This document shows, piece by piece, positions 3,962-26,389 of a stretch of DNA of 64,000 bases. The position numbers and the translations under genes were made by a program. Numbering within the stretch: position 1 is the first letter of the stretch; each line of letters begins with the position of its first letter. The DNA is from Spiroplasma apis B31 (lineage in GTDB: Bacteria; Bacillota_I; Bacilli_A; Mycoplasmatales; Mycoplasmataceae). The stretch spans positions 248,001 through 312,000 of the forward strand of contig NC_022998.1 of NCBI RefSeq assembly GCF_000500935.1, written 5' to 3'. Below the pieces are notes generated by a model, which was not told the origin of the DNA, did not search any database, and saw only the letters and a program-made list of their open reading frames with translations.

Positions 3962-5764
3962 ATGGCTGAACAACAAATATTTGCGAGCAAAAAAGAAAAA
4001 AGACTTGCAAAGAAAACAAAAAGTTCGTCAGGTGGTTCGGGGTCGTGGAACAACTTTTTAACAATGTTGCAAGAACTCGGTAAAGCATTGCAATTCCCAA
4101 TTGCAGTTCTACCATTTGCGGCAATATTAAATCGTTTTGGTGCATTGGGTTTACAATACACATCTGAGATATTAGATAATGGTAGTGTATTAATCACAAA
4201 TAAAGTGGGATATTGAATATCAACACTAATACAAAAACCAGGTGCGGTACCATTTGAGAATTTGCCTCTTCTATTTGCAATCGGAACTGCATTTGGATTA
4301 GCTAAAGATCATCGTGGAGAAGTTGCTCTAGTGGCATTAATCTTTTATATGTCACTGGCTGCATTAACAGCTGAGCATACTTTGCCTGAGATGTTTTATA
4401 AAGGCGTATTTACTTTCGAGGACAATAAAGGAGACATGTGGTCAAGATTATTTTATGTTCCTTTGTACAAAGAAGGTACTGAGGCATCGGTTGAAAATAT
4501 AAGTGGGGGTAAATACATTCTTGATATAGGTGTATTAGGAGGTATTGTTTCTGGTTGTATGTCTGCATTTTTCTACAACAAGTTTAAAGATATTAAACTA
4601 CCCACAGCTTTATCATTTTTTGGAGGTCGTAGATTTGTACCGATGGTTGCATTAGTTGCTGCTATACCAGTTGCATTATTATTTTCAATCATTTGACCTT
4701 GAATACAATATGGTTTAGTGTCATTTGGTGGGTTGGTAGCTAATCCTAATAATCCAATTGTTGCTGTACCTGGAACTGCAATTTATGGAGTATTAAATCG
4801 TTTATTACTACCTTTTGGTTTACACCAAATACTAAATACTTTCTTCTGGTTCCAACTACCTGTTGGTGACTTTAAAGTAGGTCCAATCAATGGAAATGTG
4901 ATAGGAGATCCTACTTTTGTAAACGGAGATATTAATGCATTTGCCAACGGAATGTCAAATTCAGGATTATTCCAGTCTGGTTTCTTCCCAATTATGATGG
5001 GTGGAATGCCTTGTGCTGCTTTAGCCATGATAATGTCTTCAAGAAAAGAAAATAGAAAAGAAGTGGCAGGATTTCTTGGTGGGGTAGCAGCAGTTTCCTT
5101 TTTATCAGGAATAACTGAACCACTTGAGTTCTCATTCGTATTTATATCACCATTATTATTGTTATTACATGCTTTAATGACAGGTGTGTTTGTTGCAATA
5201 ACTACTGGAATGCATATACAAATAGGATTCGGATTTAGTGCTGGTTTCATAGATTATTTGATCTCTTTTGCACAATCTTGAGGTATTGCAAAATATCACG
5301 ATAGTCTAGTGTTGAGCAATCCCTTATGAATCTTGGTATTATCAGTTGGTGCTGGTTTAGCATATTATTTAGTTTTCTATATAACAATAACTAAAATGAA
5401 TTTGGCAACACCTGGACGAGAAATAAAAGATGATGCCTCAATCAATTCTAACGACTTACTTGACAAAGAATTATCTAATAATTCTAATATTACTAACAAA
5501 TATGATTTGATGGCAGCAAAAATTATAAAAGCTGTTGGTGAAGATAACTTTGTAAGTATCGATAATTGTGCAACAAGACTAAGACTTATTTTGAAAGATA
5601 ATTCATTAATAGATGATAAAATGGTCAAATTAGCAGGAGCCTTTGGAACAAAAAGATTGGGTGCAGAGGGTGCTCAAATTGTAATTGGTCCAGATGTTGA
5701 ACATGTTGCTAATTCTATTAAAAAACAACTTGGTATAGAGTGAACCCATAAATTTGACAGTTAA
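3962..5764 (+). CDS. PTS EIICB, glucose/N-acetylglucosamine superfamily; 3' end replaced by an insertion
   Basis: 600 residues in code 4, preceded by AGGAGAGC. Residues ~30-470 are an EIIC of the glucose superfamily (motifs NPNNPIVAVPGTAIYG, FFPIMMGGMPCAALA and SGITEPLEFSFVF). The C-terminal IIB domain has the phospho-Cys in NCATRLRL at about residue 536. No IIA domain. The last coding bases enter the left terminal repeat of the 14.9-kb element, so the protein now ends GIEWTHKFDS. Removing the element and one GTA copy restores ..QLGK and TAA, so the original protein was one residue past Gly. The change lies after the IIB fold and probably leaves function intact. The original terminator is now at 20671, beyond the element. 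MurNAc, GlcNAc or glucose are all possible substrates; the MupG neighbour favours an amino-sugar. Confidence 0.9.
5733..5735. repeat. Target-site duplication, left copy (GTA)
   Basis: The 3-bp GTA directly outside the left inverted repeat matches GTA at 20653-20655 outside the right one. Three bp is normal for IS3-family insertion. Confidence 0.75.
5736..5759 (+). repeat. Left terminal inverted repeat of the phage-transposon
   Basis: 24 bp starting TAGAGTG and continuing AACCCATAAATTTGACA. It matches the reverse complement of 20629-20652 at 23 of 24 positions. A further shared block, CAGTAATTTAA, lies 39 bp in (5775-5785) and 38 bp in at the other end (20604-20614). The AACCCAT core at this spacing from the tip resembles IS150-group ends (from memory). 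Confidence 0.85.
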
Positions 5765-5802
5765 ATAAAAACTCCAGTAATTTAATATTATTATATAAAA
5801 AA

Positions 5803-6924
5803 TTATCAATTTTTGTAACTTAATTTAAATTGTGAATTTTTATACCAATTGTATCAAGCATTTCAATCTTTTAAATCTTCTATATATTCATTCAAATTGG
5901 AGTAACTATTATTATGAATAGTTCCTTTTTTAAGGAGGGAGTGAAATGATTCAATTACAATATTGTCTGCACATGTATATGCACGACCTTGTGATATAAT
6001 TAAATTATCAGCTTCACAAACTTCTTTAAATTCATAGCTTGTGTACTGGTGACCGTGGTCCGAGTGGATTATAATTCCACTCGGACTTTTTATTTTCTTA
6101 ATTTTAGCGATTGCGTCTCGTAGATTACTCATTACTAATTTGTTATTATTTGCAAAGCTAATTTTATAATCAATAATTTCTTTTGTGGCAGCATCAATTA
6201 TTGTTGACTGGTATGCTTTTGATTTTCCATGAACCAAATATGTAACATCAGTATATAAAACTGTTAAAGGCTTATCAATTTGTTTAAAACGACGTTTAAT
6301 CAAATCTGGGTATGGTGATAGTTTGCCTACTTTTCTTACTCTTTTATTGAAAGCATTTCTAACTCATTTGGCGCGTAAATTATACTTTTTCATTAAGCGT
6401 TGTATACGTTTGTGATTAAATCTAATTCCCATCTTTTTGAGTTCTGTTTCTATTCGACGATATCCAAATTGTGATCTATGCTTTTCAAAAATTTTTTTAA
6501 TTTCTTTGAATGCTACTTGATCTAATTTTTCTCTTTTTGATTTTTTTATTTGATACAAAAATGTAGTTCTTTTTAATCCAAGAACCTCCAATGCTAAAGA
6601 TTGTGTTGTACCTTTTTCGATTAGTGTCATTGCTATTAATGCTTTTTTAGCATTTGAGTATCTGGTAAAATTACCGTAATTTTCTAGTGTGTATTTGGTT
6701 AATTCTGCAATGTTTTTTCAGTCAATTATTTGTATTCTTCTGCCTCTCTTTTTTGAGTTCGCAGAACCTTCAAGTTTCAACTTTCTTCTTCATGTCTTTA
6801 TTGTGTTTGTTGAAACCCCAAAGTTTTTAGCTGTGTTTTCTATACCAATTTCAAAAGAATTTTTTATAATTTTGTCACGATATTCATTAGAGTATTTCAA
6901 AAATTTTTGACCTAGTTTCGCCAT
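5803..6924 (-). CDS. IS3-family (IS150-like) DDE transposase, single fused frame
   Basis: 373 residues. The N-terminus has a helix-turn-helix (ENTAKNFGVSTNTIKTWRRKL), followed by the OrfB HTH_21 region (FGYRRIETELKKMGIRFNHKRIQRLMKK) and an rve core with TDVTYL, HSDHGHQYTS and ES.HSLLKKG, giving all three DDE residues. IS150-type elements normally make OrfAB by -1 frameshifting; here orfA and orfB are continuous once TGA is Trp. GAGGAGAT lies 7-8 nt before the ATG at 6924; the ATG at 6930 is too close to it. It starts 45 bp after the terminase stop, likely in the same transcript. It ends 44 bp inside the left inverted repeat, but the matching right repeat is 13.7 kb upstream, with all phage genes between. 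It is likely the recombinase of the whole element. Confidence 0.92.
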
Positions 6925-6969
6925 TTTCATATCTCCTCAATAAGTCTTTCGTTAATACAATATTAACAT

Positions 6970-8640
6970 TTATTTAAAGAGCCTGTATCGATAGAACGAT
7001 AGTGCATGTTCAAATGCATTTATTACATCTAAATTATTGGCCTTTGGTCTTTCATCGCGTATTTTTTTATCAGGGTGATTGATACATTTTTCAAGTTCAT
7101 TATATAAATGCCCGTACTTTTTAAAGATGATAGTTTCGCCTCTAATTTCTTTAGTAACTGTTAATTTATTGCTAAAAAATAATTTGTTTTCTGAAAGTAG
7201 ACGTTTGATAACATAATGCCTATCAACAATTGGTCATCCATAATGACCTGTTGACTTAAAAATTCTCATTCCGTTACTTAAAACTACTGGATCATAATTA
7301 TATTCTTCTTCTAAAAATTTAGAAATAAAATCTCTAGTTGTTCTTGAGTCTTGTCCTATTTTAAATTTTATTGATTTCTCGAATGGTTCTTTTAAATTAT
7401 GCATATATTTTTTGCATCAAAAATCTATTGTTTTGGCAATATATTTAACTTTATCGACATTGCTTTTTTTAAAGCGTCTTGAATTAATTGATTCTTCTTC
7501 AAGTATATATATTGCTTTTACACTCTCATCTTTATTTAGTTCAAATCCTAACATAACAAGTGCAGTATCATCACTTATTTGACCACCATCAGCATAATCA
7601 CATCCAATGGTAATTCTGTCAAATCAAAAACGTTTCTCATTCTCAAAATAAAATTCTTGTAGATCAAAAGTTTGAGTATTAGCATATAAGTCTTTTCGAT
7701 ATGAATAATGATCTATTTGCATTTCATTTTCATTGCCGTTGAACAATGTTTCATATTGCTCAGGGTTTGTTTTTTTTAATCCTTCGGCAAAAACTAGTAA
7801 ATCATTATTTAAATTTGCTTGATTTAATTTAGTAGTACCTCGAATAACGGTTGCTCCTACACCATAAAAATCTTTATAGATTCCTGTAGAGTAACCATTA
7901 ACTTTAAGTTCCTTCTTCCTTTCATCTGTTAGGGGCAACACTGCTTGCACATATAGTTGATAAATTGGGTGATCTGTTTGATGGTTGTTAAAACCAAATA
8001 TAACCATTCTTTTTTTGAAAACTTGAAAATCCTCATATCTTAGCTCTTCGATATTATCAAAAGAGGTAGTCAAATCTTGGCCCCTTATTATCTGAATTAA
8101 AATATTATTTAATTGATAGATATAATCTTCTTCATCCAGTATTTTTTCTTTTAAGGGTATTACCTCATCAAGAGCGAACATTCCTCATTCACCGATTGCA
8201 GCTGCAACACCTTCCCATTTTGAAGTATTGTCAAAGCCAATTACTCAAACCTTACGTTTATTTGGAAATACAAATTCACAACGATTATCTGAATTATAAA
8301 ATTTGATCTCCTTTGATTCTATTTTGTCCATAATTGTTACACCGTATTTTTGTAAAAACGTAGCTACACGAATCATCATTGCTGAATAAGTTGTTTTTGC
8401 GGATGTGAATGTATAACGCGCTAATTGCACGTTATAGTCAGTAAAATTACATATATTAAATCATGCAACCAAGCAAATAAAAAATGTTTTTCCAAATCCT
8501 TTCGCTCCCGAAAGAGCAAGGAAAAATGTAGTGTTTGTGACGTATGTTCCATACACCTCCAACATTACCTTTTTATATATGTCTACAGAAAAATTGCAGT
8601 TATCTGTGTCAAATTTTAAGTCTATATTTTCTTTTTTCAT
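6970..8640 (-). CDS. Phage terminase large subunit
   Basis: 556 residues. The N-terminal ATPase has a Walker A-like loop (SGAKGFGKTFF, about residue 45) and Walker B (WGMFALDEV). The C-terminal RNase H-like nuclease has IGCDYADGG..DDTALVML as its first acidic motif and ends with DVINAFEHAL, the usual last Asp. It should bind the portal, pump DNA into the prohead and cut at the end of packaging. The start ATG at 8640 has a weak AAGG ahead of it and lies just after the terminator of the structured RNA (8668-8920). The transposase gene follows. Length and motif order are normal for TerL, so packaging appears intact. No small terminase subunit was recognised. Confidence 0.9.
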
Positions 8641-8667
8641 ACCTTAATTGTTAGCATAAAATGGGAG

Positions 8668-8920
8668 AAAAAAAAAGACTTAAAATAGTCTTTGTTTTAA
8701 AAATTTCGGGCCGCTCACGTTACTCAAAATGAGTTTGGAAAAAAAATCATTGCGGCACATTCTAAAAATACGAGAGTACTCTATAATTACAAGGATACTC
8801 CCGTACCACGATGACACGCGGTACTAAAGGTATCATTTACATTCTCTCACTATTTTAAATGGGAGTCAAGGATTCTTTTTTTCAAACGAATTTCTCATAA
8901 CTATTCGCGGCCCGCCGGCA
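8668..8920 (-). ncRNA. Structured phage RNA with its own terminator (candidate packaging RNA)
   Basis: A GC-rich island without an open frame between the lipoprotein and terminase genes. On the minus strand an 8-bp perfect closing helix pairs CGGGCCGC (8907-8914) with GCGGCCCG (8707-8714). Inside, I can pair CGAAT/ATTCG, ACTCCC/GGGAGT enclosing CATTT/AAATG and a GTACC/GGTAC hairpin, then GGGAGTA/TACTCTC as an alternative, and an ACTCA/TGAGT hairpin. A terminator (stem 8674-8680 with 8687-8693, then a T run) follows about 15 nt past the closing helix. This pattern fits an independent structured RNA. It does not look like tmRNA, RNase P, 6S, SRP or a tRNA. Function is inference. Confidence 0.6.
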
Positions 8921-8937
8921 TTTTTTTTAAGAATAAT

Positions 8938-8965
8938 CAAAAAAAAGAACAGCCAAAGCTATTCT
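8938..8965 (-). terminator. Terminator at the end of the phage lipoprotein gene
   Basis: On the minus strand, AGAATAGC pairs with GCTGTTCT (one G-U), followed by a run of eight T. It overlaps the lipoprotein stop codon and separates that operon from the RNA. Confidence 0.8.
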
Positions 8966-9312
8966 TCGATATAATCTAAATTTAATAAATTTTTAAAATA
9001 ACTAATATATTGATATTTATAACCTTCTCATCATTTGTTTTGTGTGTTGTCAAATGATCCATCATCAAAGTAAAAAGTTATCTTACACAATCCCTCTGCG
9101 CGTAATTCTTGCAAAGTGTATTTTTTCACCTTAGTTTTGTCTAAAGTTGTAATACCTGCTCTTTCATAATTTGTTCAAGGTTTACCAGTTCTATTATCTA
9201 AACAAAAAACTTGTACCATATTTTTATCCTTTCCACATGAAATGACATTTGTTGATATTAATATTGTTGGTATTGTTGATAATAATCCAAACGTTAATTT
9301 AAGACCTTTCAT
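8959..9312 (-). CDS. Phage-encoded lipoprotein
   Basis: 117 residues with a mollicute lipoprotein signal: a basic N-terminus (MKGLK), a hydrophobic stretch, and lipobox VISC with the lipidated Cys at residue 26. The mature part is about 90 residues, with three TGA Trp codons. A G-rich stretch (GGGGGT) lies ahead of the ATG. It follows the 668-aa gene on the same strand by 19 bp. It should be exported and anchored on the outer face of the host membrane. Temperate phages of other Firmicutes encode lipoproteins that block superinfecting phage; that, or adding a surface antigen, is the natural guess. No family match is claimed. Confidence 0.75.
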
Positions 9313-9331
9313 AATTTGACCCCCGTTAGAG

Positions 9332-11338
9332 TTATAATATCAAATTTGTAAAGTTATTTAAAGAGTCATTTTTGTCAAAAAGATTTAATTCTAAAACATG
9401 TTCTTTATCACTGATATCAATTAAGGATAATTGCCAAATTCCTGCACCATAAAAACTTGATAAAATGATTTCATTTATTTTTTGTGGTTTGTTAAATTCA
9501 AATTCTCCGTTATTTTCAATATAAGATAAATTCAACGGATTATAATTTAAGTTTGAAGATCCATAATCATTTTTAATCATATTAATTTTTGAAATTTCTT
9601 TATTAAATTGTTTAACTTGATATTTTGAATATTCTCCATTTGCTAATTGTTGGTCAATAGGCATAGAAGAAGGTATAGAAGCTGTTTCGGTATTTTTTGT
9701 CATTTCAGGAAAAACATAATGATTTATATCAAGTTTATAAATTTTATTATTCGAAACACTTTCTACAAAAGGTTCAAAATCATCATCAGTAAATTTGAAA
9801 TAATTCGATTTTAATTTAACTCTCAAATCTGTGTAAGAAACAAAACCTTTTGGGTTATCAATACTGTTTTGTAGTTCAAAGTAATAAGGAAGTAAAATTT
9901 TATAATCATCGTTATCACCTTTATTTATACAAAAGTTTGATTTAAAGGCTCCTGACAACATCGCCATAGCAGATTCAATTCTTTTAATTATATGTTGATT
10001 TTTTAACACATACTTAGAATTATTAATACGTTTTCAAGCAAGTCAATTATTGGTAGTAACCGCATATCTATCTTGCTGAGCATATTTCTCCATAAGTTGG
10101 TAAATTTGCTTATCATCAATTTTTAACTCACCTGTATCTTTATCTATTATAGTTGCTCCTTGAAATTCGTAATCTTTTCAAAAGCTTTCAGTTACCATTT
10201 TACACAAAACTTCAAATCCTGTTGTTTTTAAATTTGAACTTGAATCATATATATTTACATCGTAGATTTGTTGGACGTTTCGATGCAAAATAACTGTACC
10301 ACTATTATTTGTTCCTACACCATATCTGAAGTAACCATAAATTTGATTCTCATTTGGTTTTATAGTAATCAAATCATCCATATCAACTATTTCAACACGA
10401 CCTGTTCCATCTTTTTTTTCTATCTCCTTAGTTCCTTTTGCTTTATAAGTAATTTTTTCAACATTATCAAATCTTATAGTTGTTGTACCTGTGTTTTCTC
10501 CTAACTTTAAGAAATCTCCAAGACTAAATTCTTGATTATATTTAAGTCCTTTAGACTTTAAAAAATTAAAAATATCATTAATTGGAATTATTTGATTACT
10601 AGCTCAATAATTAATTAAATTTAAAGTCGGTTGTACTTGGAACGGAAACATAAGTTTTGGGTATACCTCAGTACCTTCTTTGGGTAAAAGGTCAGGAAAT
10701 TTACCATCATCATTAATAGGTTTAATATTTCCAATTAAAGCACCAGCAGGACTTATAACATTTATTCCTTTAATTTTGTCCTTAATCGGCTCATGAACAA
10801 AAACTTTTATTCCTACAGATTTATAACTATTTGTAAATTCTATTTTTGAATCAAATGTACATTCTGCTCCACCATCAATTGAGGGTGTAATTGTTTTGGA
10901 AATGTAAAATTTTTCTTTTTCTAAATTCATATCATCTTCAATTTCAAAAAATGTTAACATATATAATTCATCAAAATTTATATCTGGGAAATCTTTAGTT
11001 TTAAATATTAAACTATCTTGATTTTTTAACAATTTAGCACTTGGTGAATTTGGGTCGATTACCTCTATTAAGTCAAAGTCCATTTCCTCAGACAAGTATA
11101 TTTTAATTTTTTTGCCCTTTTTTGGGGTCGTACACATTAAAGTAATCTTCTCGCTTGATATATTTAATCCAGAACTTATTTTTTGTCCTGTCAGGGTTGT
11201 GAGTGGGTATATCCAAGCTGTTTTAACTTGATCTTCACTATAAAATAAATCATCATTATAATCTAAATTATCTCGTTTTTGTCGTTTTACAGTATATGAT
11301 TCTATAAAGTCGTTTTCGTCATTATATTTATTAATCAT
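9332..11338 (-). CDS. Large virion-type protein, family unknown
   Basis: 668 residues, mostly polar, without membrane segments, rich in Asn, Lys and beta-type sequence. Its ATG overlaps the end of the portal-like gene by 8 bp, so it is translationally coupled. Residues ~20-240 look like a beta-rich domain, and the region around 340-420 has Gly/Asn-rich strands (IYGYFRYGVGTNNSGTVI). Size and position directly after the portal suit a connector, tail-tube, nozzle or receptor-binding protein of a short-tailed phage, but no motif decides between them. Confidence 0.7.
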
Positions 11339-12683
11339 TTTTCACTTCTCCTTCTTTATCAGTACTATTTGAAGTCCCGTTACTTAAAGCATTTGCTAGT
11401 AAATTATTATAATTTTTTTCTGTATTAACATCAATTTCAACATCAATTTCATAATCGTCCAAATTTAACTTTGGAAATACTTCTTTTATATTACATGTTT
11501 CTAAAATTCTTAAAAATTTATGTGCCAAATCTACTAAAAATTCTCTCATAAATATTTTTTCGCGCTCAATTATTGGGCTTGTTAAAAATTGACGTACCAT
11601 TAATTCAGCTTGAGTCTTCTGTGCTGATTTAATTTCATCAATATTAGGAATACCAATATCTGATTTAATTTCAGAAAAAATATCATTTCTTGTGTTTCTT
11701 ATAGTTTGCATAGTTGAAGTAGGATTGAAAGTAGTGATTTGATCAGTTATCGATTGAGGGATTCCGTCAAAATCAATTCCTGATGATTCCACTAATCCAT
11801 TAAATAAAAGATTTTTCATAAATTTATAATTTTCAATCTCAGCATCAGGTCCTTTTGATTGACTATTTTTTAAAACAGCACCTTTCTCTCACAGAGGTAA
11901 GGTTGCGGTTACTTCGTCATAAGTATTTAGCATCGCTAATCTTTCTTTCACCTTATTCATTCTTGGTATTTCATCAAAATCGTTTTTTAAAACAGATACA
12001 GGTACAAAGTTAAAAGTAAGGTTTTTTTCATTATTTTCCTCCAAATGCCTTTGAATATTAGCATCCATTAATGAAGTATCAATATTTTTATTTTTATTAA
12101 AATCTAATAAACTAGTATCTACTGAAACTTGATTTTCATTTAACTTATATTTTTTCTTGAGGATGAAAGACTCTTTTCCTACTGTTAAGGGATAATCATC
12201 ATAAAGTACCTCAATCTCAAAAATATTGTTATTTATTGTATTTTTATAAGATACTCTGGCAGGTATCAAAATAGGTCTAGTTTCAGCCATATTATTAAAT
12301 ATTTTTCTTGTAACTTGTTTTACAACTACAAGTGCATATCTTCCATGAATACCTGATCTAAATTTTGTCACTCATCCTAAACCAGGCAAATTTGCCTCAC
12401 GTAAGTATTTTTTAAATATATCTTCAAGTAACTTATTTCCTTTATTTGTAGGTCCTCTAATAATTCATTTTATATTTGTTAAATCGAAAAGATCAGCAAA
12501 GAATTCATTAAAAACTCTTGTTTTTTCTATAGCTACATTTGAGTGTTGTCTTCCATAAATCATTTCAAACAGTCCATTAACATTTTCTTGTTTATTTTTA
12601 TTTAAAGAAGCTTTAATATTCTCATTCGAATATATTGCATTATTATAACGTTCAAGCAATTCTTCTTGTATATTTTTTGGCAT
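11331..12683 (-). CDS. Portal-like protein
   Basis: 450 residues in one frame with TGA as Trp. The features are those of a tailed-phage portal: an N-terminal helical region with MIYGRQHSNVAIEK, a central GLGWVTKFRSGIHGRYALVVVKQ strand segment like the wing/crown fold, then a long helical C-terminal half (VKERLAMLNTYDEV.., SAQKTQAELMVRQFL) resembling the stem and crown helices of portals. It starts a fresh transcription unit after a terminator, with AGGAG 8 nt before the ATG. Together with terminase, capsid and scaffold-like genes it completes a packaging set. The assignment rests on fold-like pattern, length and context rather than a signature motif. Confidence 0.6.
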
Positions 12684-12766
12684 TTTTTTCTCCTATCTAA
12701 ATGTTTTTGTAACTTTTACATACAAATTTTTAGTTTCTTTAGAGTTTTAAACTTGTTATTAAAATC

Positions 12767-12794
12767 TAAAAAAAACCAGTTTTTTTATACTGGT
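12767..12794 (-). terminator. Terminator after the capsid operon
   Basis: On the minus strand, ACCAGT pairs with ACTGGT across an 8-nt loop, then seven T. It lies just after the stop at 12802 and ends the operon of capsid and membrane proteins. Confidence 0.8.
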
Positions 12795-12801
12795 CATTTT
12801 A

Positions 12802-13233
12802 TTAAAACTTCTTAGCTAGTTTTAAATTTTTATCACGCTCTTGCGCATGATATAGTTCAATTTGTAAGTCAACTAATTCTTTTTTGATTGATTTAGTGTC
12901 TCTCACAGTGTTTAGTGTATCAGTGTTAATTATTCCGTTTGCTTTAGCAATCTTAGAAGTATCTAATGAGTTAACTTCATTTTGATATCGCCTTCTTAAC
13001 TCAGCATCACGTCTATTAGCAAATGCAGATAATATTGCAACTACTAGAAATGTTAAGGTCAGCGAACCAGAACCAGTCACAATAACAGTTATATACAATG
13101 GTATGGATACTAATTTTTCTCTTAAAAAATAAGCGACTAAACCAAAAGCAGCGAGTACTAATAAATAACCTAAAAATACAATTAATAAATTTCTAGTTAT
13201 TCTTTTGGGATTTTTTAGCAAAAATTTTAACAT
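12802..13233 (-). CDS. Phage two-helix membrane protein
   Basis: 143 residues. A basic N-terminus (LLKNPKRITRN) is followed by two strong membrane segments (about residues 14-36 and 44-68), then a charged helical tail of ~70 residues likely forming a coiled coil (KKELVDLQIELYHAQERDKNLKL). AGAAAGGA lies before the ATG. It is the last gene of the capsid operon. The hairpin-in-membrane layout is like that of holins or membrane-associated release proteins. In a host without peptidoglycan no endolysin would be needed. No family match is claimed. Confidence 0.65.
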   Translation of the reverse strand: MLKFLLKNPKRITRNLLIVFLGYLLVLAAFGLVAYFLREKLVSIPLYITVIVTGSGSLTLTFLVVAILSAFANRRDAELRRRYQNEVNSLDTSKIAKANGIINTDTLNTVRDTKSIKKELVDLQIELYHAQERDKNLKLAKKF

Positions 13234-13260
13234 ATTTTTTTTCCTTTCTGGAACAAGGCA

Positions 13261-13794
13261 CTATGTAGTATCTTGTCCTATTATTTTTTTTAATAAATTT
13301 TGTCTTTCTATATATTTGAATTGTTTATAATTTTTTTCTGTTATTATTAAATAACCACAAAGGATTAATATCATTACTGGCAATATTTTTAACAATACAT
13401 CAATTATAATCTTTACTTTTTTACTTGGCATTAATTTTGGCAATTTGTGAATAAAAGTTGAAATAGTTGCCGGAACAAGAGTTAAAGCAATTTGATTACC
13501 TCAATTAGATCATCCAAATGAAGTCATTCCTAAATTCATTCAAGATAATCAACTTGGAAGGGTTATTAAAGGGGGTAGCAAGGTTCATAAAGTTGTTAAA
13601 ATAAAATAAATAAATGTGTCAGTATCATAAATAGTTTTTGCTTGTTTATGCCTTATTTTTTCGGATTCTTTCATATTAGATAAATCATAAAGTTCTCTAT
13701 CTTTATAATAATCTTTAGCACCTTTATTTCAAACTTTTGAAAAAGGTAATCCAAAATACCATTTAAACTCAGGTTTTTGAATTGAATTACTCAT
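13261..13794 (-). CDS. Phage multi-span membrane protein
   Basis: 177 residues. The ATG overlaps the end of the upstream 553-aa gene (ATGAGTAA), so translation is coupled. A charged, aromatic N-terminal 60 residues is followed by three or four hydrophobic segments (about 63-85, 90-115, 133-153). Six or more Trp are encoded by TGA. Unknown family. Together with the following two-helix protein it forms a membrane pair that could act in virion release or, less likely, in an internal membrane. Confidence 0.65.
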
Positions 13795-15448
13795 CTTTAT
13801 CACCATCTTTCCAATATTTATTATTTGGATCAATCCCTAAGGTTTTAATTCTATGTTGTTCTTTTGCATGAAGTTCTTCAACAGTTGGCTTAATAATTTG
13901 TAAATCTTTTTTTATAGGTTCTAATTCTGCTTTAGTTACTAGTGAAGTAAGTTTTGCTTCACGAGCGATTCTTTGCTGTTTTTCCTGATTTTGTTTTTCA
14001 AAAAAAGGCATAGAGAAGTTAATTGAATACTTATTAGTATTACCGTTCTCATCAATTCCAACATATTCTCATACAGAAAAAGGTACTTCAAAAAAGGTTT
14101 CGTTATCTTTATTACCGTCTATAAAAATATTATTTTTGAATCTTTTATATTTAGTCTTTTTAATATCTTCAATAGTTAATCCAAATTTAGCAGCACCCAT
14201 TATTCATTCAAACAAATATCCATTGTATCCACTAATATAATTAGTATCAAAAAATCCATCTCAATTTTCAACTTTTTTTCAAATTCCCGCTGTTTTGAAA
14301 CCAATAGTATGCTGATTTGTAAGGATCGAAAGGTTTTCTGTTAAAAGGTCTTCTCTAAGAAAACGTAGATTGTTTATTTTATTTGTTCCATATTCTTGAG
14401 AAAAAAGATTTGTGTCGTGAGAATATTCTTGATTTTTAATTCACCCTTGTTTCAGTTCTTTTCTTAACATCTGAACACTTTTTATCAACTCACCTTTTAC
14501 AAAAAGTTTATTTATCCGTTCATTTATTTCTTTGTCTTTGTCTTTTAATTTATTAATAGTATTCTCTTGTCCATAAGCCCAAATTCTACCGATTGCATTT
14601 TTATGGTCTGTCTCACTTGGTGTTTGAAAAATTTGAGCACCTGTAATTTCTCCAAGAGATTCATTTAAATTTACTATGGCTCGTTTTTTATTATTTTGAG
14701 TATCAACTATTATAGAATCGGACTTATGACTAAGAATAAGAATTTCATCAAAGTAACCAAGTTCTTTGGGAGAATCAATAGGATTAGCATTTTCATCTAG
14801 TTCTTGTACTAATAATTTATGATCTTTTCGATTTGCTTTATTATTACTTAAGTTATCTAATTCAAGTTTAAGACTTGTAGTTTTAAAATTAGTGTATTCA
14901 TGTTCATATTCAATTTTTTTATCGATTTCAGTAAAGAACTCATTTATTTGGTCTTTATTAAAAAACATATTAGGGTCAAGTAAATAATCTGGGTCAGCAT
15001 CTTTAACGTAACTTATATATATTTTTTCAATTTTAGAGTTATTTCAAGCCCTTCATGCAGGAGCGCCAAGTACACTTTCTATATTCGAATATCCGGGTAA
15101 CTGAGTAGAATCGGTTCTTCCATTATTATAGCTAGTTGATGATTGTCTATCTGTTTGACTCACGTGTGTATCATTTAGGCGTAAGTGATCCATTGCTCGA
15201 TAAGTAAAATTTTTTAATTCTAGTTGAACTTTTGGGGGTAAATCTTTTGTTAAAAATAATCTTCCAATAGCAGACCCAATTCTATCATTAGCAAGCGATT
15301 GCGCCTGAAAGGCATTCTTATCAAAAAAATCTTTTGGTGATATATAACCCAAGCTTTTTTGATAATTTGTTAAATAAGTAAATTTGTTTGCTACAGAAGG
15401 TCAAGTTAAATAATCTTCATAGCTTGTAATTTCTCATAAATTAAACAT
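13787..15448 (-). CDS. Virion-type protein of 553 residues, family unknown
   Basis: Soluble, no signal peptide, acidic and Asn/Lys rich, overlapping both neighbours by 8 bp. The N-terminal ~115 residues (SYEDYLTWPSVANKFTYL.., FDKNAFQAQSLANDRIGSAIG) have a helical head-completion-like look, then a Ser/Gly-poor linker, a long charged middle, and a helical Gln/Lys-rich C-terminus from about 480. It may be a connector, tail or internal virion protein. Strict overlap with the 545-aa gene before it and the membrane gene after it places it in the capsid transcript. Confidence 0.65.
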
Positions 15449-17078
15449 AAAATATACGAACCCTTCTAATGCGCTTTACAACTTTTTTATTAATTGGATG
15501 ATAAATATCTTGATTATTAACTTTTTTGCCTTTGATTCATTTGATTATTGATGATGTAAAAATCTTTGCACCTGGAATAACTCCTATTGTTTTTGAAATA
15601 GATCTATCAATATTTTTTCTAATCGCTTGGTCATATTTTGTTTTAAAAAGGTTTGGAGAACTTTTCAAAGTACTTATTGAAACTAGTTTTGTCAATGCTA
15701 GAGTCTTGTTATAATTTTTTTTAACTTTATCTATACTTTTTGCAAGACTTGGTGATATTAGTTTTAAAATACTGATTTTTTTTTGACTAAAACCATAGCC
15801 AAGAGCTCAATTTTCGTTATATCAAATTGATTGTTCGTCGCCAGTAGATAAAGTTGCAAATTGTTCAATTTCAAATAGATTAGTTCAAACTCTAACAAAG
15901 TTGTAATTGCTTATTTTACCAGTTTTGACCGAAATATAAGGTTTTTTGTATATAGTACAAAAACCTTCTCCCGAAATTGATGATGGTTCAAATTTAAAAC
16001 CTAATAAGAATGAATCTATATGGCAAGGAATCAGATTTAATTTTTTGATCAAGTTTTGTCCTAGTTTATTTCACTTAACGAAAATATTTGAGGTATGTTT
16101 TTTTATTGTGGCAATAGTTTGATTAATAGGTTCAAAAATTTTTTTTACAATTTTGTTAATTAATTTTAAAGGATTAATTTTATCAATTTTAACTTTAATT
16201 ATTTTTTTATAACTTTTAAATATGTTAAAGAATGTTTCTTGAAATTTAGACTGAATTCTAGCATTATTCATTTTTAAAATTTTTTGATAACCAAAGGAAG
16301 TTTGAGCTAAATCAACTACAAACTTAGAAGCCTCAAGATCATTCATTTTAAAAAAATCATTAATAGAAATGTTCTTGTATTTCTTTAACATAAAATCAAA
16401 ATTTGTAATTTCTTTTTTAGAAACATAATTTACTAATTTGGGATTAATTCTGTGTAAAGTTTTTTGCATGTCAAGATACAAATTCATTTCTTTCAAACTT
16501 AAGTTTTTTAAGGCTTTTTTAGTTTGAGGTTGAACCAAATTTGATATCAAATTTAATATTTCAATATCAGTTACTTCTTTTTTGAAAGCAAACTTAGTTT
16601 TACCAACAAGAATGTCTTTATACATGACACTCTGTTTTAATTGATAAAAGTTCTTGAGTCTTGAGTTAATACCAATTTTTTCATAAATTTTAGCTTGATT
16701 GGTTAACTTTAATAATTTGTCATATTTTAAAGCACGACCAAATTGTCCAATATCAGAAACTGAAAATAATAAATTAAGCAAAGTGCTTTCAGTAGTTACA
16801 TTTCCATACATTATATCGAATGCCTCGGTTATTCCAAAGTTGATGGTTGATTGAATTAAAAATGATGAAGTTGCTATTCCTAATTGACTAAATCCAAGAG
16901 GGGCAATTATTGCAGTTCCTATACCAGCAGTTAGTGTCCCAAGAATTGCTGCAAAAACTTGAATTGAAAGAGTTTTAAAAAATTCTTCTCAAAAACTATT
17001 CTTTGTATTTTCAGGTTTTCTTAAGGTTATCTTTTTTTTGTAAGTAACAACTTGGTTGGGTTGTATTATATTAGGCAT
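15441..17078 (-). CDS. Virion-type protein with hydrophobic Gly-rich N-terminus, family unknown
   Basis: 545 residues; its ATG overlaps the capsid stop (TAATG). Residues ~33-85 are a hydrophobic Gly/Ala-rich double segment (FAAILGTLTAGIGTAIIAPLG), then a long basic helical region, then a Trp/Gly-containing part near 390 and a very basic C-terminus (KKVVKRIRRVR). A membrane-active segment on a long helical, basic protein coded just after the capsid is what one expects of an internal ejection or pilot protein that passes DNA through the cell membrane. That function is inference only. Confidence 0.65.
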
Positions 17079-18109
17079 TATTCTTTTTGCATTATTTTTT
17101 CAAAATTTTTTGCAATTTCAATTACTTCCTCAGTTGTTTTTGCGTTAGCAATAAGGTTACTAGTTTTTTTGAATTCAGGTTCAAATTTAGAATTTTGTAT
17201 TCATTTTTCACGTAAATCTTCAATAGTTTTTTGTTTGAATTGATCTAAGGTTGGTGATACATATTCACCACTTGTAGATGTTTTTGTTGGTAACTTAGGT
17301 TCTTCATAACCTATAATATGTTGAGGCATAATAACTTTTGCTCCATAGAATTTATTTACAGCTGTGAATATTTGTCCTAAATATGGCCCTTGTACATATT
17401 GACCTGCCTGAAGAGGTGTTTCAACTCCGCTTGCTCAAGCGAAGGCAGAAGGCAACAAAGCCACAATTTGGTATCCCATGTCGTCAATATCAGCTTCCAC
17501 TGTTGTATATTTATTAAATAATTTTCTAATAGTGATATTTGTATTTTCAATAGTACTGACTGAAGTAGAAATATTACTATTTACAATTGTTGCAACCACA
17601 GATGGAGAGATAAGAATTATACAATTTTTCAACTTAAATTTTAATTTTTTAGCTTCTTTTTCAAGTTTTTTAAATTCTATAACCAAATTATCTTTTGTGA
17701 TTTTCACTGGAGATGAATATTTATTCACTATTCCATTACAAATTTTATTTAATACAAATTCATCGTAAGTTTCTGCCTCAATTGCTTCTAAAACAGTTAT
17801 TTTATTTTCCGCCCAAGCTTCTGCAGCAGAATTAATTTTTGCTATCTTTGTATAAGAAGTAAATGCTTCTGTTAGCTCAACCTCAGCCTCTTTTTCTGTA
17901 GCATCATTTTCGACAAAACCGTTTTCTTGCGATCATCCTGTTTGTAGTTTTGGGGAAGTCATAATAGGGAATGAGACTTTACTTTTAAAGCCAACTTCAT
18001 CTTGTGTTAATTCATTTGGAAATAAAATAGCTAGTTCAGAACCTCCCAATGCGTTTTCGTGTCTTCAATTATTTTTATATATTTGTTGTATAACTTTTAA
18101 TGCTTCCAT
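17078..18109 (-). CDS. Probable major capsid protein
   Basis: 343 residues, in the normal size range for HK97-fold capsid proteins. It lies directly after a small acidic scaffold-like gene and is preceded by GGAGG at good spacing. The sequence SELAILFPNELTQDEVGFKSKVSFPIM, then ATEKEAEVELTEAFTSYTKIAKINSAAEAWAE, has the E-loop/spine-helix-like order seen in such proteins, and the C-terminal half alternates short helices and strands. No hallmark motif exists for this fold, so the call rests on size, order and pattern. Confidence 0.6.
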
Positions 18110-18110
18110 T

Positions 18111-18434
18111 TTATTTTCCTCCAATTATTAATTTTCCTGTTTTTAGATTTAAACCTAAATTAAGTTTCTTTTTATTTGTATCTTGTAAAGTTTCATTTTT
18201 TTGAATTGGTTTTGATACATTTGTTAGTTTTTTAATCACTTCTGATTGCTCTTCAATTTGTGATTCTAACAATTCCAATTTCTTAATGAGTTCTTCTTCT
18301 AGTTCTTTATTAGAAATTTTTATAGGTTGTTCATCCTTAATATCTGTTTTTTCTTCCATTTCTTCATAAATAAAAGAACCGTCTTCATTTTTTAAAGGTT
18401 CACCAGATTCGTCAGTCATAATATATTTTTTCAT
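18111..18434 (-). CDS. Scaffold-like acidic coiled-coil protein
   Basis: 107 residues. A perfect AGGAGG before ATG 18434 fixes the start; the longer frame from 18491 has no such site. Residues 1-30 are acidic (TDESGEPLKNEDGSF), 40-80 form a Glu/Lys/Leu coiled coil (ELEEELIKKLELLESQIEEQ), and the tail is short and basic with Gly (KLNLGLNLKTG). A long helix with a basic C-terminal capsid-binding end just before the capsid gene is the usual scaffold layout. Confidence 0.6.
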   Translation of the reverse strand: MKKYIMTDESGEPLKNEDGSFIYEEMEEKTDIKDEQPIKISNKELEEELIKKLELLESQIEEQSEVIKKLTNVSKPIQKNETLQDTNKKKLNLGLNLKTGKLIIGGK

Positions 18435-18504
18435 AATACCTCCTATAATAAGTGATAGTATAATTGCTAGCATAAAAAAAAAGATTGTCAATACAATTCT
18501 TTTT

Positions 18505-18876
18505 TTATTTTAAAACACCTAATTTTTCATATTTTAGACTCTCTGCAATTACCGATATAGAAGATTTTTGTCCCTTAAATCATTTTGCTTCAAATATGCC
18601 AGTAATTTTAACTACATCATTTATTTTTAAGTTTTTCATTTTTTTAATTAATAGGGGATTTTTTTCGTACACAAAGATTGAGTTGTTTGATCAAGTTAAT
18701 CGCATATATATCATATCTGATGAATAACCGTTTTTGTCCATGCTTCTAAGTTCAATTTGTGACACTTTTGCAGTAACAGTTAAAACTGCACCAAGTAATG
18801 ATTTATCTATATTTTTAGCAGGCATTTGTTTCAACTCACTTTCAATTTTCACACTTAAATTTGAGGGTTTTTTCAT
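18505..18876 (-). CDS. SSB-like OB-fold protein
   Basis: 123 residues from ATG 18876, chosen because GGAAG lies about 9 nt ahead; a longer frame starts at 18921 but lacks an SD. The pattern LLGAVLTVTAKVSQIELRS, then IYMRLTW, then INDVVKITGIFEAKWFKGQKS, and a closing ISVIAESLKYE is the five-strand OB order of single-stranded DNA-binding proteins. It lacks the acidic C-terminal tip of host SSB. It overlaps the RuvC-like gene upstream and precedes the scaffold-like gene. It probably coats single-stranded phage DNA. Confidence 0.55.
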
Positions 18877-19303
18877 TAAAATGTGCTTCCAAAATAGCTC
18901 TTGCATGGATTCAATGCTCATTTTTTTTACCAAACTTGTTAATTAAATTTGTTGTTAATTCTTTATTTTTATGTGAAGGAATATGACCTTTAAATTTAGA
19001 TTTAAAGTGATTTCTTAGTAATCCTACAAATTCTCTGGTCATCTTAATTTCTTTAAATAATTCTTTCCCCTTATGAGGTATTTCTACGACCACAACATCT
19101 ATATCAATATTTATTTCAAAATTTTTTTTAATTTCATTAATAAAACTTAAAGTTTTATCAAATGCCTCAGAAGGGAAATTTGCTATTAATTGGGTTTTTC
19201 AAACTCTAGGGTAATTTAAAAATTTTGATTTAATATAAATACCTGTAGTTCCGCATCCGCTAGGGTCAATACCGATGCTTAACAAAGATTTTTTATGCGT
19301 CAT
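18815..19303 (-). CDS. RuvC-like resolvase/nuclease
   Basis: 162 residues with TGA as Trp. The start SIGIDPSGCGTTGIY matches the RuvC/RNase H-like first strand with catalytic Asp 13, and VVVVEIPHKGK supplies the second acidic residue (Glu 72). The C-terminal helix EHWIHARAILEAH is where RuvC proteins usually carry their last Asp pair; here these are His/Arg. The C-terminus overlaps the SSB-like gene by about 60 bp, or 107 bp if the longer SSB frame is used. It may resolve branched replication or transposition intermediates. Loss of the last acidic residues, or an earlier end, should be checked. Confidence 0.6.
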
Positions 19304-19687
19304 AAATTAATCCAATCTACGACCTTTCGTTAGACTGATTTTAACATTATATAAAAGAAATGTATAAATAATAGGTATTTTTTGGTCAAATAATTAGTTA
19401 ATTCGAGTAAATATTTGTAAAATTTGAGCAAATTTCATATTATTTTTAAGCATCACTTTATAAAAAACCATGTTTTTGCTGTTCAATAAGTTAATTAGTG
19501 TTATATATTGTTAAGTAATGTTTTATTTGTTAACGAATTTAAAGGATTGTCCTAATCATATGGGGAAACTATTTGCAAAGCAAAAAAAACTTTTTTAAAA
19601 GTTAACTTATTATAATTTTGCGACTTTTGGATCCTACCCATTTTTTTGTCGCATGTATCTCCTAATTTATATATTTCTAATTACAGA
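19304..19687. other. Phage intergenic region between the first and second leftward genes
   Basis: 384 bp, very AT-rich. On the minus strand, after the stop at 19688, there is AGGAG followed by a six-codon frame (MRQKNG), then an A/T-only hairpin with a T run (AACTTTT / AAAAGTT, near 19585-19605) that probably ends transcription of the right-end gene, and then the promoter listed for the RuvC-like gene. I see no longer coding frame. Confidence 0.5.
19361..19389 (-). promoter_or_regulatory. Promoter for the RuvC-like gene and downstream phage operon
   Basis: On the minus strand TTGACC (19389-19384) is 17 bp from TATACA (19366-19361). A TATAAT at 19351-19346 offers an alternative -10. The start codon of the RuvC-like gene is at 19303. 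Confidence 0.5.
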
Positions 19688-20482
19688 CTAAGAACCATCT
19701 TCATAATCTTCAAGTCAGTTAAATTTTGTTAAAGATGTTAATTTTGGAGTTTCAGTAACTTCTGGCTCATGTATTCCAGCTTCACCATTTTTAATATCTT
19801 TTTCTTGTTTAATTTTTACCAAATTTAAAACTACAGATAAAATTTTTTTCTCTCTGTCATTATATGTTTTTTTATAAAGTTTGTTAGCTTCTTCAAAAAG
19901 ATCGATAAAGTCTTCGAATGTAGTTCTAAATTTTTCTTCTAAAATTGGTCGTTTTTCAAAGTCAAATGGTATTCATCTAAAATGACCATATCAACTTAAA
20001 TTCACACCACATGTCAAAAAATCGTTCATTTTGATTTCCTTTTTTTGAATTTTAGTGGGTCTAGGAGTAAATGTTAAGGGACCAGTTTTCTTTTGTGTCC
20101 CGTATTCATTGTCTAGTAATCTACCACCTTTGGGGAATTTTAATTCAAGTCAACGCTTGTTTCTATAATCAGGAATTAAGACAAGAATAGAATTACCATT
20201 TTTTTCTGAACGATAGTGCATGTCAATAATTCACTCTTTTTTTATTGTTATATTACTTAAAGTTTTTCAAGAAAGTTTTTGATTGATCACTCTACATTTT
20301 GTTTTATGTAAATTACCCCTTAATTTATTAATAATTTCTTTAGCTTGTTTTGTATTTAAAAAGTTTAAAGTTGAAAAAGTTGGTAGTTCAAAATCAAGTT
20401 TTATTTTAGTTTTTTTGACTTCTTCTAACATTAAATTAATGTATTTTAATTGTTTTTCAGTTATTAACTTTAAATTTTCCAT
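19688..20482 (-). CDS. Phage early protein with helical Q/Y domain, function unknown
   Basis: 264 residues; the ATG at 20482 has GAGAGG at 8 nt, so it is preferred over ATG 20506. The first ~60 residues (ITEKQLKYINLMLEEVKK..LNTKQAKEIINKL) match a small helical module I associate with the ends of phage recombination and ssDNA-handling proteins. The rest is a mixed domain with FPKGGRLLDNEYG and WIPFDFEKRP. It is the first gene of the element, 147 bp inside the right repeat tip after the hairpins. An early or regulatory/recombination role is likely; no firm family. Confidence 0.55.
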
Positions 20483-20505
20483 AATATTTTCCTCTCGTTT
20501 CACCA

Positions 20506-20593
20506 TTTTTTTAATCTAAATAGTACTTAATCTGGCGAAACGAAAGGCCTTATTTACATAGATAATGATTAAGTACTATTTAGATTAAAAAAA
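20506..20593. repeat. Perfect 27-bp inverted repeat with 34-nt loop
   Basis: Arms 20506-20532 and 20567-20593 are exact reverse complements (core TAATCTAAATAGTACTTAATC split over the arms). They flank a loop of higher GC (GGCGAAACGAAAGGCC). It covers the upstream region of the first phage gene. It could be an operator, an origin hairpin or a transposase-binding site; the sequence alone does not decide. Confidence 0.85.
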
Positions 20594-20623
20594 CGACAGT
20601 CTTTTAAATTACTGTCGTTTTTT
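20588..20623. terminator. Bidirectional terminator at the right end of the element
   Basis: The 13-bp perfect stem AAAAAACGACAGT / ACTGTCGTTTTTT has a 10-nt loop. It works on both strands and should isolate phage and host transcription. Its inner part includes the subterminal TTAAATTACTG block shared with the left end. Confidence 0.75.
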
Positions 20624-20628
20624 AAATG

Positions 20629-20652
20629 TGTCAAATTTATGGGTTCGCTCTA
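20629..20652 (-). repeat. Right terminal inverted repeat of the phage-transposon
   Basis: The reverse complement starts TAGAGCG and continues AACCCATAAATTTGACA, one mismatch in 24 from the left end at 5736-5759. Confidence 0.85.
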
Positions 20653-20655
20653 GTA
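20653..20655. repeat. Target-site duplication, right copy (GTA)
   Basis: GTA directly outside the right repeat, matching 5733-5735. The following AATAAAG completes the original end of the interrupted PTS gene (GGT AAA TAA). Confidence 0.75.
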
Positions 20656-21655: not shown

Positions 21656-21726
21656 TATATTTTAGGTTTATTATGTTTATGGGAAGGGAGATAGTTAACC
21701 ATATCAATGACAGGAGTTGAAGGAAT

Positions 21727-22905
21727 ATGAGTAAAATTCAAGTATTTTCCGAAATAAAAAAACTTAACACAGTCTTAGTACATAGACCAGGTAAGGAGTT
21801 AGAAAACTTAACACCGAACACCTTAGAAAGATTATTGTTTGATGACACACCATTCTTAAAAGTTGCTCAAAAAGAGCATGACGAGTTTGTTGCTAAAATG
21901 AAAGCAAATAAGATTCAAGTTTTATATATTGAAAACTTAGTAGCTGAAGCTTTAGACCAAAATCCCAAACTTAAGGACGAGTTCATCGACACTTTCATAA
22001 AAGAAGCTAAGATTGAGGGTAAATGAATTGATAAATATAAAAACTATATATGCCAAATGAGCAATATAGATATGGTTAACGAGATGATTGCAGGTACTCT
22101 AAAAATTGATTTAGAACCAACAGATAAAAGCGATTATCCATTTATTTCCGACCCACTACCAAACGTACTATTTCAAAGGGACCCATTTGCATCTGTTGGT
22201 AATGGTGTTGTTTTGAACAGAATGTGAAGCGAAACAAGGAATAGAGAAACAATATTTCCGCAATTTGTGTTTAAAAATCACAAAGATTATGCCGATAAAG
22301 TTCCTTTATTTTACGAAAGACAAAATGAGTTTAGTATAGAAGGTGGAGACGTCCTTGTTTTAAATGAAGAATCATTGATCATTGGTGTTTCCCAAAGAAC
22401 TTCAATGGAAGCAATTGAATTACTTTCTAAAAAATTATTTAAAGAAGGATCATATAAAAAAATATTAGTTTTAGAACTACCAAAATCAAGAAGTTTTATG
22501 CATCTTGACACTGTTTTTACAAATGTTGATTATGACAAATTTATTGTTCACCCAATCATTTTTGATGACCCAGGAGCTTTCAAAATTTATGAAGTTACTG
22601 AATGCGGAACAAAAACTGTCTCAAAATCTCTTATTGAGGTTCTTGAGGAACTTATCGGTAAACCACCAATTTTAATTAAATGTGGTGGTGATAACCCGGT
22701 TGCAGCTGATAGAGAACAATGAAACGATGGTACAAATGTTCTAACAATTGCACCAGGAAAGGTAATTGCTTATGACAGAAACTGGGTAACAATAAATCTA
22801 CTCGAAAAAGCAGGAGTAGAAGTTATTTTAATACCAAGTAGCGAACTTTCTCGTGGTAGAGGTGGGCCAAGATGTATGACAATGCCACTTCATAGAGATA
22901 AATAA
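21727..22905 (+). CDS. arcA: Arginine deiminase
   Basis: 392 residues. It hydrolyses arginine to citrulline and ammonia. The guanidine-modifying fold is clear: [29 protein letters not shown] with the catalytic Asp/Glu region, the HLDTVFT His, and the nucleophilic Cys in [11 protein letters not shown] near the end. Slightly shorter than the usual 405-410. It is the first gene of an arcA-argF-antiporter-arcC operon (gaps 13, 44 and 10 bp) that yields one ATP per arginine. AAGGA lies before the ATG; two terminators separate it from the upstream genes. Confidence 0.96.
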
Positions 22906-22918
22906 GGAAGGATATATA

Positions 22919-23911
22919 ATGCTTAATTTAAAAGGAAAGAGTTTAATAACACTTTTAGATTTTTCTCCAAGAGAGATTGAATACCTTTTGGATCTTGCAA
23001 GAGATTTAAAAAGAGCGAAATACGCTGGGAATGAAATACCTAAGTTAACAGGAAAAAATGTGGTCTTACTATTTCAAAAAGATAGTACGAGAACTAGGTG
23101 TGCATTCGAAGTTGCTGCATTGGACCAAGGAGCTCATGTAACTTATTTAGGTAGTGCTGGTTCACAAATGGGTAAAAAGGAGTCAATTCAAGATACAGCT
23201 AGAGTGTTAGGAAGAATGTATGATGCCATTGAATTTAGAGGGTTTAAAAACAGTGATGTAGAAGCACTGAGAGATTATTCTGGTGTACCTGTTTTCAATG
23301 GTTTAACAGATAAGTATCATCCAACACAAATTTTAGCTGATTTTATGACTATCATTGAAAAATTTGGTACCCTAAAAGGTAAAAAACTTGTTTTTTGCGG
23401 GGATGCAAGAAATAACGTAGCTAACTCACTAATGATTGGTTGCGCTAAAATGGGTATGCACTTTGTTGCAGCGGCACCTAAGGAATTGTGACCAGACAAA
23501 GAGCTTGTTAAACGCTGTCAAGAGATATGTGTAGAGACAGGTGCTAAAATCGAGTTTGAAGCTGACCCAATGAAAGCTGTCGATAAAGCAGATGTTTTTT
23601 ATACTGATGTGTGAGTCTCTATGGGTGAACCCGATGAGGTTTGAGAAGAGAGAATTAAATTGTTGAGCCCATATCAAGTTAAAAGCGAGATGTTTAAAAA
23701 TACAAATAAAGATGCTATATTCTTACATTGTCTTCCTGCATTTCACGATCTGAACACAGAAATTGGTCAAAAAGTTTTTGATAAGTTTGGTCTTACCGAG
23801 ATGGAAGTAACAAATGAAGTATTTGAATCAAAAAGATCATTAGTTTTCGAAGAGGCAGAGAATAGAATTCATTCTATTAAAGCCATAATGGTAGCTATGA
23901 TTGGCTTATAG
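22919..23911 (+). CDS. arcB: Ornithine carbamoyltransferase, catabolic
   Basis: 330 residues. It has the carbamoyl-phosphate loop [10 protein letters not shown], the ornithine-binding HPTQ and the HCLPAFHD motif. It phosphorolyses citrulline to ornithine and carbamoyl phosphate. AAGGA precedes the ATG. Three TGA Trp codons interrupt it in the standard code. The position between arcA and the antiporter marks it as the catabolic enzyme. Confidence 0.96.
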
Positions 23912-23955
23912 ATAATAAACCTTCAAAAAATTAAGGGTTTATTAAGAGGTTAAAT

Positions 23956-25449: not shown

Positions 25450-25459
25450 AGGGGTAATT

Positions 25460-26389
25460 ATGCAAAAAATAGTTGTAGCAGTTGGTGGTAATGCCTTAGG
25501 CAATAGCCCACAAGAACAAAAAGAAATAGTGAAACTTACAGCAAAAAATATAGTAAATATGTATGAAAAAGGAAATAAAATAGTGATAGTTCATGGTAAT
25601 GGTCCACAGGTTGGAATGATAAATTTAGCCTTTGATTCTGCTCATAAAGTTTTGGATTCATCTCCTATGGTTGATTTTCCAGAATGTGGTAGTATGAGTC
25701 AAGGTTATATTGGTTATCATCTACAGAACGCAATCGTAAATGAATTGAAAATTAGAAAGTTAAAAGGAGAAGTTGCAACAATAATAACCCAGACAGTAGT
25801 CGATAAAAAAGATGTTGCATTTGACTACCCAAGTAAACCAATAGGAAATTTTTACTCAGAAAGCGAAGCCGCACATTTACAAGTTGAAAACAAATGAACA
25901 ATGAAAGAAGATGCTGGTAGAGGATGACGTAGGGTTGTACCGTCACCAAAACCAATTGACATATTGGAAAAAACTTGTATATCCAATTTTTTAGATAATA
26001 ATATTATTACCATTGCTGCTGGAGGTGGTGGGATACCTGTAATTGAGCAAGATGATCGATATCTTGGTATTCCTGCTGTTATTGATAAAGACTTTGCGGC
26101 TGCCAAAATAGCTGAAATAATAGATGCTGATAAGTTAATTATTCTAACAGCTGTTGATAATGTGATGATTAATTTCGGAAAAGAAGACCAAGAAGTATTA
26201 TTCAAGACACCGTTGGCAATAGCAAAAGACTTAGTTGAACAAAAACACTTCGCTGCTGGTAGTATGCTACCAAAAGTTGAGGCAGCATTATCTTTTGTTG
26301 AAAGAACAAAAAAAGATGCTATTATTGGGTCACTTGAAAAGGCGAACCAAGTTATCGAAGGAACTAGTGGAACAACATTCACTATATAA
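25460..26389 (+). CDS. arcC: Carbamate kinase
   Basis: 309 residues. The amino-acid kinase fold shows VAVGGNALG at the start, IVHGNGPQVG, and ITIAAGGGGIPVIEQDD in the middle, with DKDFAAAKIAEIIDAD. It makes ATP from carbamoyl phosphate and ADP, the energy-yielding step of the pathway. Last gene of the operon; a strong terminator follows at once. Confidence 0.96.

Follow-up and report, generated by a model that had tools for sequence, protein, structure and literature searches.

A tailed-phage genome of Spiroplasma apis with the tips and transposase of an IS3-type transposable unit

Introduction

Transposable tailed phages are usually equated with Mu and its relatives. A locus of Spiroplasma apis B31 raises the question of whether a tailed phage may instead move by the transposase and ends of an ordinary insertion sequence. 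The genome of this strain is a single contig of 1.16 Mb, in which TGA is read as tryptophan; positions given below are those of the window, the whole stretch of 64,000 nucleotides that was analysed. It harbours an element of 14,917 bp (5736-20652), all of whose long genes lie on the minus strand while the flanking host genes on both sides lie on the plus strand, and the GC skew shifts across this stretch. The original prediction had read the element as a terminase-bearing phage packaged as an IS3-type transposon. Here we describe its ends, its genes and its relatives, and weigh the ways in which it could move and replicate.

Results

The ends of the element and its insertion site

The element is bounded by 24-bp terminal inverted repeats with 23 of 24 positions identical: TAGAGTGAACCCATAAATTTGACA on the transposase side (5736-5759, plus strand) and TAGAGCGAACCCATAAATTTGACA on the far side (20629-20652, read on the minus strand). 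The ungapped inverted-repeat score of these tips is 21.8, as against 9.8-12.8 in shuffles; when up to three mismatches are allowed, the window contains the tip core exactly twice (expected 0.19). The whole 1.16-Mb genome holds one extra match with two mismatches, at 816877; it sits within an unrelated gene and was rejected as a chance match. Directly outside the tips, the trinucleotide GTA is found as a target-site duplication, with identical left (5733-5735) and right (20653-20655) copies. The tips and duplication are thus of the kind that defines the IS3 family, namely terminal repeats of about 20-40 bp with a duplication of 3-5 bp.

The insertion interrupts a PTS transporter gene within its last codons. 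With the element in place the gene product ends in IEWTHKFDS; when the element and one GTA are removed in silico, giving the predicted empty site AACTTGGTAAATAAAG, the stop codon is regained and the product ends in KQLGK. Homologues of this transporter end soon after the same KQLGK motif. TAG was also considered as the duplication and was rejected because it requires tips of unequal length, while GTA suits both the tips and the regained stop codon. The IS3-type boundaries put forward in the original prediction are borne out by the match of the tips, the GTA on both sides and the repaired PTS gene. The genome holds only this one copy of the element, which counts against reading it as a transposon.

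A perfect 27-bp inverted repeat with a 34-nt loop (20506-20593) lies upstream of the first phage gene, a short way inside the far tip, and adjoins a terminator-like hairpin (20584-20627). It could be an operator, an origin or a packaging site. On the host side, an arginine deiminase pathway cluster (arcA, ornithine carbamoyltransferase, an antiporter and carbamate kinase; 21673-26389) adjoins the insertion.

The transposase

The gene nearest the left tip (5803-6930, minus strand) closes the phage transcription unit at its 3' end and encodes an IS3/IS150-type transposase of 375 aa. It combines the Pfam domains HTH_21 and rve, scores 218 bits against the NCBIfam IS3 profile NF033516 (cut-off 160) and retains an intact D...D-35-E (DD35E) catalytic motif, the combination expected of an IS3-family DDE enzyme. 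A programmed -1 frameshift between OrfA and OrfB is usual in the IS3 family, though not universal; in this copy the two are fused in one continuous 375-aa frame. Searches of the element with Pfam and PHROGs recovered no tyrosine or serine recombinase, integrase or resolvase domain, in keeping with the earlier proposal of an IS150-like enzyme unaccompanied by an integrase.

Within its own genome the transposase is without close paralogues, the next best being 31% identical, and that genome contains no short element in which the phage's own tips bound a transposase alone. Since both tips and transposase are single-copy, the tips do not come from a multi-copy IS flanking the phage by accident.

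The phage genes

Three of the proteins, all encoded on the minus strand as are those that follow, identify the element as a tailed phage: a large terminase, a portal and a capsid with an HK97-like fold, the capsid match being the weakest. The large terminase subunit (556 aa; 6970-8640) has the Walker-like motif GAKGFGKT, the motif DEV and a nuclease-like CDYADG; it is 44-54% identical to those of its relatives and belongs with the TerL of a related unit, L126, which passes Pfam Terminase_3. The AlphaFold2 model of the 450-aa protein (11331-12683) has 59 PDB matches at E <= 0.001, the best of which are portals (SaPI1, E 1.4e-10). The adjoining 668-aa gene was considered as the portal and rejected, the portal fold belonging to the 450-aa protein. 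The model of the 348-aa protein (17078-18124) has a mean pLDDT of 57 and its best PDB matches are phage capsids (E 2.3e-4); we accordingly assign it as a putative HK97-type major capsid protein with modest confidence. Of the structural genes originally named, the terminase thus stands on its homologues, the portal on its fold and the capsid on a weaker fold match; the scaffold-like label given to a 126-aa protein (18111-18491) could not be confirmed, and this protein is kept as a scaffold candidate by its position before the capsid gene.

At the start of the unit lie a 272-aa protein (19688-20506), with orthologues in L025, L031, L108 and L033/L127, and a 162-aa RuvC-like resolvase candidate (18815-19303). 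The latter has a profile match (E 1.4e-7) to the protein annotated as RuvC in Spiroplasma phage MaM-2019a, and an hhalign value of 95% that covers only 21 residues; a PDB sequence search with it gave no useful match. The next gene (18505-18933) encodes a 142-aa protein with orthologues, a candidate ssDNA-binding protein. Downstream of the capsid gene are a 545-aa virion-type protein (15441-17078) and a 553-aa protein (13787-15448), both with orthologues in phages having IS3 and Mbov_0401 transposases; the second is a possible tail appendage. These are followed by two membrane proteins, one of 190 aa (13261-13833; orthologues 38-68% identical) and one of 143 aa (12802-13233) with hydrophobic segments and orthologues. 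Between portal and terminase are the 668-aa protein (9332-11338), a virion-type protein conserved in relatives and, from its position and size, probably a tail or knob protein, and a 117-aa protein (8959-9312) with a predicted lipoprotein-type signal and orthologues in L024-L027 and L031. Most of the remaining genes gave no convincing match to Pfam or PHROGs and are conserved in relatives. Neither collection yielded a recognisable initiator, helicase or polymerase, the early genes being very divergent.

Relatives with an IS3 transposase

Relatives were collected by searching 99 genomes for the terminase and by a family profile search, and their gene maps were drawn from HMM annotation. Five IS3-type copies were found in four other genomes: L126 in G024 (17,287 bp), L127 in G027 (17,362 bp), L031 in G018 (16,368 bp, with a frameshifted terminase), and L024 and L125, both in G014 and both internally deleted (6,394 and 9,062 bp). 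Together with the S. apis element, all six have perfect 3-bp duplications (GTA in S. apis; AAT, TTG, AAG, AAC and ATT in the others) at unrelated insertion sites, where random identity is expected with a chance of 0.027 per copy. In each of the six the tips match within the unit and begin with TA or TT; in L031 their placement has some freedom (TTGACAGAG vs TAGACTGAG). The transposase is the 3'-terminal gene in every copy, adjoining terL, the 668-aa gene or a short lipoprotein-like gene, and g143 in one of the deleted copies. Hence, the same type of tip bounds the same gene set in other mollicute genomes with a 3-bp duplication each time, and in no relative does the phage have other borders within the IS; on both counts the original prediction holds.

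The G014 pair are complementary deletion derivatives within one genome, both with tips and duplications: besides the transposase, what remains is the 668-aa gene and terminase in one and the head genes in the other. In G024 the insertion lies directly upstream of rpsJ/rplC, with which a ribosomal protein operon begins (L126 1-1550). Near their far tips, L126 (16563-17345) and L127 (16498-17334) encode a D12-class DNA adenine methyltransferase that is absent from the S. apis element.

This comparison leaves very little room for the reading in which an ordinary prophage received an IS3 at one end and the other tip is a relic of a second IS, as in a hitch-hiking composite transposon: IS3-family elements abound in related genomes, and similar tips are found on stand-alone relatives, but the same architecture recurs in six copies from five genomes although their transposases share only about 38-45% identity with that of S. 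apis, each copy's own duplication falls outside the phage, the far end has no second transposase, and relatives with another enzyme have tips matching that enzyme.

Relatives with the Mbov_0401 transposase

Four further units, L025-L028, have directly after terL a transposase that is not of the IS3 family. That of L027 matches NCBIfam NF046004, the Mbov_0401 family ICE element transposase-like profile, with 292 bits (cut-off 162), and has distant similarity to ISLre2. In genomes of the S. citri clade a transposase of this kind is divergent from terL and occurs in many copies; S. citri plasmids also carry such relatives (H1-H13). The tips of these phages differ from the IS3-type ones, beginning GGGCAAGTTG in L026 and L027 and GGTAGTATACATTATT in the S. 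citri clade. They are flanked by 8-bp duplications (8 or 9 in L026) in all six copies with both ends resolved, a count that leaves out five further S. citri-clade copies with unresolved far tips; the chance of random 8-bp identity is 1e-4 per copy. The copies are 15.4-17.4 kb long, and near-identical ones with unrelated flanks occur in one genome, which shows movement within that lineage.

Cognate tips with 3-bp duplications for the IS3 enzyme and 8-bp duplications for the Mbov_0401 enzyme indicate that these phages move as transposons and that a module of transposase plus tips has been exchanged among them. At least two DDE transposases, the IS3 enzyme among them, are interchangeable across the family, and enzyme, tips and duplication length change together.

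Origin of the module

G037 and G004 contain stand-alone insertion sequences of 1.2-1.3 kb in which TAGAATGAACCC-type tips enclose a transposase alone; over OrfB, the enzymes of these elements share 49-50% identity with the phage transposase. No duplication was convincingly seen beside these elements in either genome. Their similar tips suggest that the phage module derives from an insertion sequence; the simplest history would be that a phage genome became enclosed in such an IS, between its transposase gene and one of its tips. The transposase tree, in which support is low, does not group the phage-borne IS3 enzymes in a single clade.

Discussion

A model of transposition and its alternatives

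Elements of the IS3 family move by an asymmetric strand transfer that leads to a host-replicated circle, which is then pasted in with a 3-bp stagger. The S. apis element is very probably a small tailed temperate phage whose entire genome is one transposable unit. By analogy with the IS3 family, the transposase would bring the two tips together and host replication would copy out a circle of double-stranded DNA, about 15 kb long, in which the tips abut. The circle could then be pasted into a new site, either in the same cell or in a newly infected one; the circle, or concatemers of it, is the probable substrate for packaging by the terminase, and repeated copy-out would amplify the phage. We propose, more tentatively, that IS-type copy-out itself both amplifies the genome and supplies the circle that is packaged, unrelated DDE modules (IS3 and mycoplasma-ICE type) being interchangeable in this role. 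Classical IS3 circles are expected to have a conserved junction promoter; no consistent one was found at the abutted tips, with 8 of 12 matches in this element and 6-7 of 12 in the others.

A variant, compatible with the copy-out model, shares the transposon structure but denies amplification by copy-out: the transposase would only integrate the phage, with replication and packaging from a circular genome left to a separate theta or rolling-circle system. We regard this as a serious possibility, if short of a probable one. The RuvC-like and possible ssDNA-binding genes would suit recombination-dependent replication; against it, an initiator, helicase and polymerase are missing from the Pfam and PHROGs results, but the early genes have diverged too far for these to exclude one.

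It is rather improbable that the element is a domesticated or satellite one, using capsid and packaging genes for gene transfer or for parasitising a helper phage and merely maintained by its IS3. Its small size, the want of a recognised polymerase or helicase and the internal deletions in both G014 copies would fit such a role, but the terminase, portal, capsid and several proteins of tail size are present and open in the S. apis copy, and relatives transpose as whole units to many sites. Mollicutes lack a wall and have no need of a lysin.

On the copy-out model of a transposable phage, copy-out transposition as a form of phage replication becomes testable. Such transposon-phages may explain the prophage copies that accumulate at many sites in some spiroplasma genomes.

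Comparison with known systems

Mu-like phages use a MuA-type transposase, MuB and complex ends. The S. apis element resembles them as a tailed dsDNA phage integrating by a DDE transposase, but differs in its IS3-family enzyme, simple tips of about 24 bp and 3-bp duplication, and no MuB-like ATPase was recognised in it with Pfam or PHROGs; the distinction from Mu drawn at the outset is upheld. Spiroplasma plectroviruses (SpV1-R8A2B, SVTS2) also integrate via IS-type transposases; unlike the S. apis element, they are filamentous, have ssDNA genomes and lack both terminase and portal.

The mycoplasma ICEs (MICE/ICEA/ICEF) are large DDE-transposase elements with terminal inverted repeats and a circular form (PMC7466169, PMC3317919), and MICEs generate 8-bp duplications (PMC3317919). 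The related phages, not the S. apis element itself, share their Mbov_0401 transposase family; MICEs combine it with conjugation genes, whereas the S. apis element has an IS3 enzyme and phage genes and hence falls outside this group. The mycoplasma phages phiMAV1 and phiMFV1 are similar to it in size (about 16 kb), in their nearly unidirectional gene order and in their multiple integration sites (PMC7466169); in phiMFV1 the inverted repeats are 4 bp long and both copies show an identical duplication of 6 bp, TTTTTA (PMC3317919). A very large circular intermediate made by an IS3-family enzyme has been shown experimentally in Burkholderia thailandensis, where a 210-kb megacircle arises from a composite transposon that has an IS2-like element at either end and includes no phage (PMC6350997).

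Free-virus searches gave little: a phage collection searched with the terminase, and IMG/VR searched with the terminase profile and the 668-aa protein, returned no match; the S. citri-type terminase found one 6.6-kb contig in IMG/VR, and a scan of genome contigs had matches only in S. poulsonii and S. phoeniceum.

The nearest counterpart is MaM-2019a, a tailed Spiroplasma phage of about 19 kb with terminase and transposase. Its genomes were assembled from DNA of phage-like particles (PMC12453411). In the records from S. poulsonii NSRO/MSRO (OL689226, OL689227 and OL689230), genes for terminase, portal, capsid and RuvC are accompanied by a transposase gene at one end, and no tips or duplications are stated. 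Their transposases are UPF0236/IS285-like or IS30-like, as opposed to IS3 in S. apis, and that of NSRO-P1 is of the same family as the enzyme of the Mbov_0401-type relatives (E 6.5e-98). The head genes are not detectably homologous to those of the S. apis element (hhalign 0.3% for portal and capsid, 18.7% for TerL), which places the latter outside the MaM-2019a lineage. With these deposits, transposase-bearing tailed phages of Spiroplasma were already a known kind, and the suggestion of a new class of transposable phage was too strong. Within the limits of our literature search, what appears to be new is the IS3 version, the defined ends with their duplications and the exchange of transposase modules, by which ordinary IS and ICE transposases are joined to tailed phages.
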